Positions 7,197 through 64,000 of a stretch of DNA of 64,000 nt are shown here, piece after piece. A program made the translations under genes and the position numbers. How positions within the stretch are numbered: the first letter of the stretch is position 1; each line of letters starts with the position of its first letter. The stretch is from Maribacter sp. GTDB taxonomy: Bacteria > Bacteroidota > Bacteroidia > Flavobacteriales > Flavobacteriaceae. The DNA lies in assembly GCA_002749285.1 (NCBI GenBank), contig PDPR01000016.1, positions 34,075-98,074 of the forward strand, in the 5' to 3' direction. The notes beneath the pieces were generated by a model that saw only the letters and a program-made list of their open reading frames with translations, did no database searches and was not told where the DNA came from.

Positions 7197-7245
7197 GGGC
7201 TCGTTTAAACCTTTTCACTTAAGCCGAAAAGGTTTAAACGAGCCC
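7197..7245. repeat. palindromic intergenic element, 20-bp perfect arms, 9-nt loop
   Basis: GGGCTCGTTTAAACCTTTTC-acttaagcc-GAAAAGGTTTAAACGAGCCC; no T-tract following on either strand. Confidence 0.9.
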
Positions 7246-40405: not shown

Positions 40406-40489
40406 CTTCTTTTAATTTGGAAGTGTGATCATGAATTAAGGCTTAATCCTTCGATAATCGTAACTACACCTCCTATGAATTAATCTTAG

Positions 40490-55602: not shown

Positions 55603-55710
55603 GAACCCGTTCAAACTTTTTGGGTTTAAGCGAAAATCAATGGTTTTTGTTCTATTGAAGGCTTTTTCAAGTTGCATGGCAGGGCTACGGAAGTGAAAAA
55701 AAAGACAAAA
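55603..55710 (+). repeat. intergenic repeat element copy A (about 105 bp homologous to 62037-62145)
   Basis: CCGTTCAAACTTTTTGGGTTTAAGCGAAAATCAATGG...GGCTTTTTCAAGTTGCATGGCAGGGCTACGGAAGTGAAAAA. Confidence 0.9.
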
Positions 55711-55853
55711 ACATAAACCATCCTTGTTCTGCGACGAAAAAAGCTAAAAAAGTTGCGCTATTTGCAATGAATCTTAAAATAATATTAAAATAAACTTGGA
55801 TTATTAACTTTATATTATGATTTTAGCCCTCAACTAATCCAAATACTATTAAA

Positions 55854-61700: not shown

Positions 61701-62036
61701 GTTTAAGGAACACTTCTTGTCAAGAATGACAAACAACCCTCGGGACAGAACCACGAGGTATTAAAATAGTTTTAACTGACCAGCTTTTCTTGATTGAGTG
61801 TTGGGATTGATAACATGTGTTATCAAGATAAAGCCCTAGGTATTTATCGTTTTATAAATTGTCATGCCTTTCCCATATAATTTTTCCTCCCATATCCCTT
61901 TTCCATATCTTTTATTTAGTTTCACTGTTGGTTTTTATACCATATATGCATATTTCCCATTCCCATATCCCCGTAAATAGACCTTTTTTTTAATATTTTT
62001 ATTGATTCCACGTTACTTTACCAGTATCCATATATT

Positions 62037-62197
62037 AAACTCGTTTAAACTTTTTGGGTTTAAGCGAAAATCAGTGGTCTTTTGTTCTGCTGAAAGCTTT
62101 TTCAAGTTGCATGGCAGGGCTTCGGAAGTAAAAAAAGACAAGAATAGGGCAGAAAACGGCAATTTTCCGGCAAGCCGAAAAAGTTTAAACGGTTTCG
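62037..62197 (+). repeat. intergenic repeat element copy B (about 150 bp, with 14-bp perfect inverted termini)
   Basis: CGTTTAAACTTTTT (62042-62055) ... AAAAAGTTTAAACG (62178-62191); interior matches copy A at 55603. Confidence 0.9.
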
Positions 62198-62246
62198 TTA
62201 TGTAAAAAAGTTGTGAAAAAAACCATGTTAACCTTTATTCCAGTTT

Positions 62247-64000
62247 ATGAGAAAAACCTACATCTCCATATTAATATGCTTGTTGGCCAATTTTAGTTTC
62301 GCACAAACTACGGCCATACCCGACACCAATTTTGAAAATTTTTTAATAACACAAGGTATTGATACCAACGGTGCTAATGGAAATATTTTAAATACCGATG
62401 CCGAGACGGTAACCTCCCTAAATATAAATGTAGATAATATTGTTGATTTTACAGGCTTGGAAGCCTTTGTGAATTTGGAAGAACTGAGTATTTCCAACAA
62501 CCACACCATACAGACCCTTAGCGTTAGTGCAAATACGAAACTAAGGATACTAGACATAAGTAGTTATATTTTAAATCCGGGTTTTGTTTGGTCTCCTTTA
62601 ACTACGTTAGACTTGTCCAACAATACACTTTTGGAAGAAATAACCATTCGGGATTTTAGGAATATGACAACACTTACACTACCTGAAACAAATACGCTGA
62701 AAAAGGTATATATCTACTACCTTGAAGTATCTGATATAAACCTATCCAAACTAAACGGATTGGAAGATATTTACATAAGCAATAGTGCTGCACCTTTAAC
62801 CAACATTACCTTGCCGGAGGAAACACAAGTATTAAAAAAAATATTCATAGGTCATATTTCCATTCCCGATATTAATCTAAGTCCTTATACAGTATTGGAA
62901 GATATAGAACTACGTATAACCTATGTTGAAAATTTACAACTCCCTACTACAAATACATTAAAAAAATTAATAATCACTTGGCATAAAATAGTTACACCTT
63001 TATCACTTGCCGGTGTGCCGGAACTCATTGATTTGGAAATTTCATCAAACCAAACAAATGTTCCGTTACAACTGGATATAACAAACAATGTAAAACTTGT
63101 TAATGTTAATCTGTATAGCAATAAAATGACCAGTATTAACGTAACAAATAATGCCTTAATTGAAGACTTGAATATTTCGTACAATCAACTTCCTTCGGTT
63201 AATCTAACCAATAACACCTTATTAGAAACGCTTAATGCCTCCAATAATGTAATCCCAAATTTAGATATTACCCAAAATACGGTTTTAGAAACAGTAAATT
63301 TAAGCAACAACCTACTTCCTAATTTAGATGTTACCAATAATATAATATTAGGTTCCCTAAATATCAGTAATAATAAGTTTACCGGAACCGGATTGGATTT
63401 AACACAGAATGTGGAACTATACTACCTAAATGTATCTCATAATCAAATAGAATCGTTGAACATTTCTAATTGTGTTAAATTAAGTTCATTTAACGGTTCT
63501 TATAATCTATTTTCGGGCACAGCTATTTTAGACCAACTGTATGTTATAAGATTAAACCACAGTGGTATAATAAATTTTTATTTAATGATAATGCTTTTCA
63601 TTTTGGCGATTTTGAAAACCAACATAGTGATTTTATTACCTACATGTCTTCTACAAACACCTTCGGAGGCTCAGAATTACCTATTATGACTACGTATTAT
63701 TACGCCCCACAAGCCAAGGTTAATGCTATAGAAAATTTAACCCCCAATGCAGGGGAAACCATTACTTTAACAACTACTGTTAGAGGAGCACAAAACCATT
63801 ATAAATGGTTTAAGGATGGTGTGGAAATTACAGGTGCACCAGACAGCCCTAACTACATTATTACAGAGGTAAACGATTGTGATAGTGCTACCTATCATTG
63901 CGAAATTACAAGTGATTTAGTACCTTTTGAAAATGCCAATCCACCGGGAACAGGAGGAAAAAATTTACTTCTTGTAAGAAATGATATAAATGTAACGGTA
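62247..64000 (+). CDS. secreted leucine-rich-repeat protein with following Ig-like region; apparent frameshift near 63.55 kb; 3' end beyond window
   Basis: Signal peptide MRKTYISILICLLANFSFAQ; LRR units (LTNNTLLETLNASNNVIPNLDI); the shifted frame carries NKFLFNDNAFHFGDFENQHSDFITYMSS...TYYYAPQAKVNAIENLTPNAGETITLTTTVRGAQNHYKWFKDGVEI. Confidence 0.75.

Follow-up and report, generated by a model that had tools for sequence, protein, structure and literature searches.

We consider it highly probable, on comparative sequence grounds, that the 64,000-nucleotide stretch of Maribacter sp. DNA analysed here (the window) carries a copy of a noncoding 160-bp MITE family of Flavobacteriaceae, which would be moved in trans by an ISBf6-like IS5 transposase and whose interior would be kept as a hairpin folding on one strand. 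As expected of a MITE, the element is short, noncoding and dispersed, and it shows fixed terminal inverted repeats, target duplications of constant length, empty sites and a partner with matching ends.

Copies in the window and in the window genome

The first-pass annotation described a noncoding segment of about 150 bp with perfect 14-bp inverted termini. These termini were located: CGTTTAAACTTTTT occupies 62042-62055 and recurs, as its exact reverse complement, at 62178-62191. An inverted-repeat search of this copy gave 30-nt arms with 80% identity. The segment is indeed noncoding, but its length was refined to 160 bp (62037-62196), as the alignment with other copies placed the true edges 5 bases further out on each side (Table 1). 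The outer bases of the window copy are decayed, AAACTCG...CGGTTTC compared with the consensus GAACTCG...CGAGTTC. Its target-site duplication is decayed too and therefore not visible by eye, so that the annotation rightly reported none obvious; the flanking 3-mers ATT/GTT nonetheless show a 2/3 match to a target duplication. It was also correct that the window contains no transposase; relatives yielded an IS5-family partner whose ends match, and decayed remnants of it are present in the window genome.

A second locus with a similar interior, proposed at 55603-55710, is real. It showed 90% identity with the window copy over 107 bp and is truncated at the right end, where a third of the element is missing. 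A 24-bp interior word was found twice in the window against 0.00 expected, and 30 matches to the element at E≤0.001 were dispersed over unrelated sites of the window genome, of which the assembly is incomplete (2.07 Mb, 68% complete). Judging from the word count and the genome matches, the similarity of the loci is not due to chance. The covariance model gave 35 matches in the same genome, with some sites counted on both strands. The earlier proposal would have failed if there were no further copies or no consistent termini; about 30 matches were found here, and their termini are consistent.

Table 1. Positions of the MITE copies and their parts in the window
Feature	Position	Strand	Basis or sequence
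Palindromic mini-element, 49 bp, common end type, flanked AAT/AAT	7197..7245	.	GGGCTCGTTTAAACCTTTTC...GAAAAGGTTTAAACGAGCCC
Right-truncated copy, upstream of TonB-dependent receptor gene	55603..55713	+	sequence match
Decayed target-site duplication, left 3-mer ATT	62034..62036	.	3-bp duplications in family
Full-length MITE copy, 160 bp	62037..62196	+ (folding strand)	alignment with other copies; profile match 1.2e-43
Left terminal inverted repeat, with A for the first base of the consensus GAACTCGTTTAAACTTTTT	62037..62055	+	
Interior with conserved strand-specific hairpin, sequence unrelated to partner IS	62056..62177	+	
Right terminal inverted repeat, with decayed CGGTTTC at the outer end in place of CGAGTTC	62178..62196	-	
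Decayed target-site duplication, right 3-mer GTT	62197..62199	.	

Evidence of mobility

The copies have matched 19-bp termini and fixed boundaries. In the second set of copies, both ends agreed at positions 4-7 in 38 of 72 copies (8.9 expected). Among 89 distinct terminus pairs, 59 were flanked by identical 3-mers against 12.8 on re-pairing (the largest of 2000 re-pairings gave 25), while the flanking 4-mers of the same 89 pairs showed no agreement. The 3-bp duplications were also found in 31 of 72 copies of the second set (5.1 expected) and in 29 of 46 copies of the closed genome G159 (4.7 expected). This genome contains groups of identical copies, each with its own flanks, at unrelated sites, and such groups were found for three end types.

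For empty sites, the joined flanks of 16 copies from genomes G001 and G002 were sought in those two genomes (G001 and G006 are of the same genus as the window genome). Uninterrupted orthologous sites with 84-97% identity were found for five of the 16, all of them other copies of the family than that of the window. A single target copy is visible at three of these sites (L040/L220, L050/L221 and L059/L223), while L055/L226 lacks a clean junction and one base is changed at L033/L222. The empty sites are direct evidence of insertion. The suggestion of a non-autonomous mobile element was thus upheld by the number of copies, their termini and duplications, the empty sites and the identical copies at unrelated sites, which include the checks of boundaries, duplications and relatives that the annotation had proposed.

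A fixed structured RNA gene or leader, with no mobile element involved, would also have a fold conserved across genera. Such a gene is hard to reconcile with copies at dozens of unrelated positions, with the 3-bp duplications and the empty sites, and with identical copies in one genome. In Rfam 15, no match to the element reached the gathering threshold in the window, and two loci carrying it gave none at E≤1. We regard this reading as barely conceivable.

Distribution in Flavobacteriaceae

When the left terminus was compared with public genome contigs, 71 loci were revealed, nearly all in Flavobacteriaceae, including Maribacter, Flavivirga, Kordia, Winogradskyella, Aquimarina, Galbibacter, Arenibacter and other genera. 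At most of these loci the matching terminus lies 158-164 bases away, and the length and ends of the element are constant across genera. A near-consensus query had matches in at least 63 of 400 Flavobacteriaceae genomes and at least 48 of 237 genera, which are lower bounds because only two candidates were scored per genome. In a sample of 295 genomes from the class, the window's own was the only one with a match, and none of those sampled outside the family had one. The closed genome G159 contains about 46 full copies. Few MITE copies overlap open reading frames. No MITE match was found in either the phage or the plasmid collection, and carriage by phages or plasmids is not supported. One 96% match (L036 in G031) covered 27 bases only, without termini, and is probably due to chance.

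Several loci differ from the common pattern. In Agaribacillus aureus, a genome titled outside Flavobacteriaceae, a 36-bp palindrome of the common end type was found (L157:3220-3255), with unmatched flanking 3-mers. A contig titled as a Chlorobiota MAG (L162) carries a typical element; as its genome (G267) is assigned to the family of the window, the title of the record may be in error. Aureivirga sp. CE67 contains a 164-bp MITE with the shared ends and an unrelated interior (L155, L166, L169, L176, L187 and L190), which is a second passenger using the same IS ends. Variant ends of type GAACTCGTCTTGAGTTTTT were found on both sides of elements at L184:2045-2250, L250, L291 and L301, and are probably tied to another IS5 subtype.

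Probable partner insertion sequence

Close to a MITE left end in Aquimarina longa lies a 931-bp IS that has the ends GAAGTGATTTAAACTTTTT and is flanked by the duplication ATA. Its transposase matched PF13340, PF13586, PF01609 and NF033580 above the cut-offs, which places it in the IS5 family with a DDE domain of IS4/5 type, and is 59% identical to that of ISBf6. Related ISs in the bacterial family measure about 0.9 kb, are flanked by 3-bp duplications, and have a left end of GAAGTG type and a right end that is mostly of GAACTC type. Two of them (L204 and L206, duplications ATA and ATT) have right ends that match the MITE end at all 19 bases. An IS in which both ends fully match one MITE type was not found. 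The closed genome G159 contains four IS copies with intact frames and one broken copy, alongside its full MITEs. From the end identity and the presence of IS and MITE in one genome, we infer that an IS5-family element related to ISBf6 is the likely mobiliser. Its transposase (NF033580) would recognise the 19-bp MITE ends and move the MITE in trans, with insertion into A+T-rich sites and 3-bp duplication of the target.

The ends of the MITEs are mostly paired alike: 114 MITEs have GAACTC at both ends and 32 have GAAGTG. The MITEs look as if they were built from two right or two left IS ends, and each would carry two right-type (GAACTC...) or two left-type (GAAGTG...) ends. The interiors differ no more between the end classes, where mean identity is 0.679, than within each class, where it is 0.683 or 0.724. 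When the MITE was compared with the partner IS, only the ends matched; the idea that the interior arose by internal deletion of the IS was rejected on this ground, as the interior is not visibly derived from it. In the window genome only decayed IS remnants were found (L193, 511 bp; L197), in an assembly that is 68% complete, so its MITE copies may be stranded.

Conserved strand-specific hairpin

Fifty copies (set 1) were aligned and folded, and a second set comprised 68 copies. The fold is a long hairpin composed of a subterminal, a middle and an apical helix, with 93.3% of cells paired in set 1. Compensatory base-pair changes were found in the interior. Cells changed on both sides numbered 135 in set 1 against 40.8±5.8 in shuffled alignments (0 of 500 shuffles reached this value), and slid partners gave 13-52. 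With the termini left out, the subterminal and middle helices had 125 double-changed cells against 37.5. The whole count in the second set was 232 against 79.4 (maximum 98). The shuffles leave the relatedness of copies in, so the result is strong but carries no formal probability; the slid controls keep the relatedness and agree with the shuffles.

The changes also distinguish the two strands. G-U exceeded A-C by 264:61 in the interior helices of set 1 (sum of four), with 78:7 in the subterminal, 158:31 in the middle and 20:6 in the apical helix, while a short helix at columns 32-38 was opposite (8:17). In the closed genomes G159 and G387 together the interior ratio was 205:25. The termini showed no excess in set 1 (25:29) or in G159 and G387 (16:32), and a weaker G-U excess in the second set (58:28). 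The + strand fold was more stable in 133 of 137 interiors. It is well supported by these comparisons that the interior hairpin would be conserved by compensatory change on one strand only, and the earlier guess of a structured repeat agrees with this.

Compensatory changes might also arise without selection, if template switching or quasi-palindrome repair corrected one arm of a DNA hairpin to the other. In favour of this, the element is a long imperfect palindrome whose internal deletions show that it misbehaves in replication. However, such repair would restore Watson-Crick pairs on both strands with no G-U preference, contrary to the interior ratios, and should hit the termini at least equally, where little or no asymmetry was found. 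We consider correction by repair improbable.

Single changes among copies within one genome broke pairs about as often as they kept them (67 to 68), while pair-keeping double changes were common between lineages and between the subfamilies of G159. This is suggestive of a constraint that acts on spreading lineages more than on resident copies.

Decay products

At two orthologous sites, the full element in one species corresponds to a palindromic remnant of 47 bp or 20 bp in the other. The deletions run between short direct repeats (TTTTT; GTTTAAAC); because GTTTAAAC is palindromic, the two ends also carry it in direct orientation. Remnants at the same sites and deletions between short repeats indicate that some, at least, of the small palindromes arose where they stand by decay of a full copy; such products would otherwise be taken for unrelated hairpins. 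Some resident copies would lose DNA between short repeats inside the hairpin and leave palindromic scars of 20-50 bp. Scars of 20 bp as a frequent end product were not supported, and only isolated cases were found.

Short palindromic minis of 35-50 bp occur in the family, and on their own they would fit REP-like palindromes spread by a RAYT (IS200/605-type) transposase. REP/RAYT systems make no target duplication and use a Y1 transposase, whereas this family has 3-bp duplications and an IS5-type DDE partner with the same ends, and some of the minis, at least, were left by deletions within full copies that stood there. Spread by a RAYT is very improbable.

Possible function of the fold

That the fold is kept suggests that it does something. 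Its likeliest use is at the mRNA level, where the fold might shield or process transcripts with an inserted element, as argued for ERIC and NEMIS; by analogy with these we find this plausible, though somewhat short of probable. MITE lineages would keep the interior as a one-strand hairpin, most simply as RNA read from neighbouring promoters. Alternatively, the fold could work as single-stranded DNA rather than RNA, for example on one of the replication strands, in the way that REP hairpins serve RAYT. Since folded single-stranded DNA also tolerates G-T pairs, the strand asymmetry cannot separate DNA from RNA. The duplications and the end identity nevertheless point to a DDE transposase acting on double-stranded ends, and the interior is not conserved in the IS, which make a single-stranded DNA role unlikely, if less so than correction by repair.

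Returning to the RNA reading, we might speculate further that the interior is an independent RNA without relation to the IS, hitch-hiking between IS5 ends, with its fold kept across about 50 genera while the ends switched between left and right type. The constraint would then act on spreading lineages since the RNA aids spread or tolerance, as the bacterial equivalent of a SINE-like passenger RNA. This proposal is tentative, and we hold it with less confidence than a use in mRNA.

A bias for the sense orientation relative to the right-hand gene was found in two sets (46:21 and 49:21; 95:42 together). It was not reproduced in the closed genomes G159 and G387 (20:26 and 6:12; 26:38 together), and the ratios differ significantly between sets. 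As the bias is absent or reversed in the closed genomes, it was withdrawn as evidence of function. A promoter at the right end was also considered, since TTG is located 19 bases before the element edge in many copies and a 19-base spacing of TTG is usual in Bacteroidetes promoters. It was not supported, as TAnnTTTG was not enriched at the flank and no promoter boxes were revealed at the ends. A terminator scan of two cases predicted none within the element.

Relation to known elements

The MITE shares its 19-bp ends and 3-bp duplications with the IS5 ISBf6-like elements (NCBIfam NF033580, transpos_IS5_3). Those are 0.9 kb long with a transposase gene and unlike ends, whereas the MITE has no gene, like ends and an unrelated interior. 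ERIC, Correia/NEMIS, CIR and YPAL are dispersed elements of 100-200 bp, several with terminal repeats and duplications; their transcripts are predicted to form long stem-loops, and empty and filled sites are known for YPAL (PMC2229807). They have other ends and hosts, several with TA termini, while the MITE of Flavobacteriaceae has 3-bp duplications and IS5 ends, and its fold is backed by compensatory, strand-specific changes across many genera.

Within Bacteroidota, BrickBuilt and other MITEs of Porphyromonas gingivalis also have ends matching IS5-family ISs of the same genome, but these are ISPg-type ends, with an internal minisatellite, a duplication length that is not constant and occurrence in one species (PMC4596501). 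MITECca01 of Cardinium, likewise from Bacteroidota, is probably maintained by an IS of the same genome; it differs in its IS982-family parent, its length of about 240 bp and its occurrence in one strain, and no conserved fold is mentioned in the parts of the source consulted (PMC9769881).

No description of the present family was found in the open-licence papers searched, which is weak evidence of absence. The class of bacterial MITEs is known, and this family is newly described. It gives Flavobacteriaceae, for which those papers describe none, a clear and widely spread MITE family. Transposition in trans can now be tested, given a likely transposase, a host genome that looks active (G159) and empty sites. 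The interior gives concrete form to an old question, whether selection acts on the RNA folds of bacterial MITEs and to what end. The asymmetry of G-U and A-C offers a simple test for other MITEs, in which the termini of the element serve as internal control.

Other features of the window

The gene directly downstream of the window copy (62247-63689) looks like a secreted leucine-rich-repeat protein, with weak Pfam LRR matches below the cut-off. The last 50 or so residues of its product lose the repeat pattern, which may be a frameshift. The window also contains an S4-Flavobacteria ribosomal protein leader at 40427-40459 on the minus strand (Rfam RF03141, 49.1 bits).
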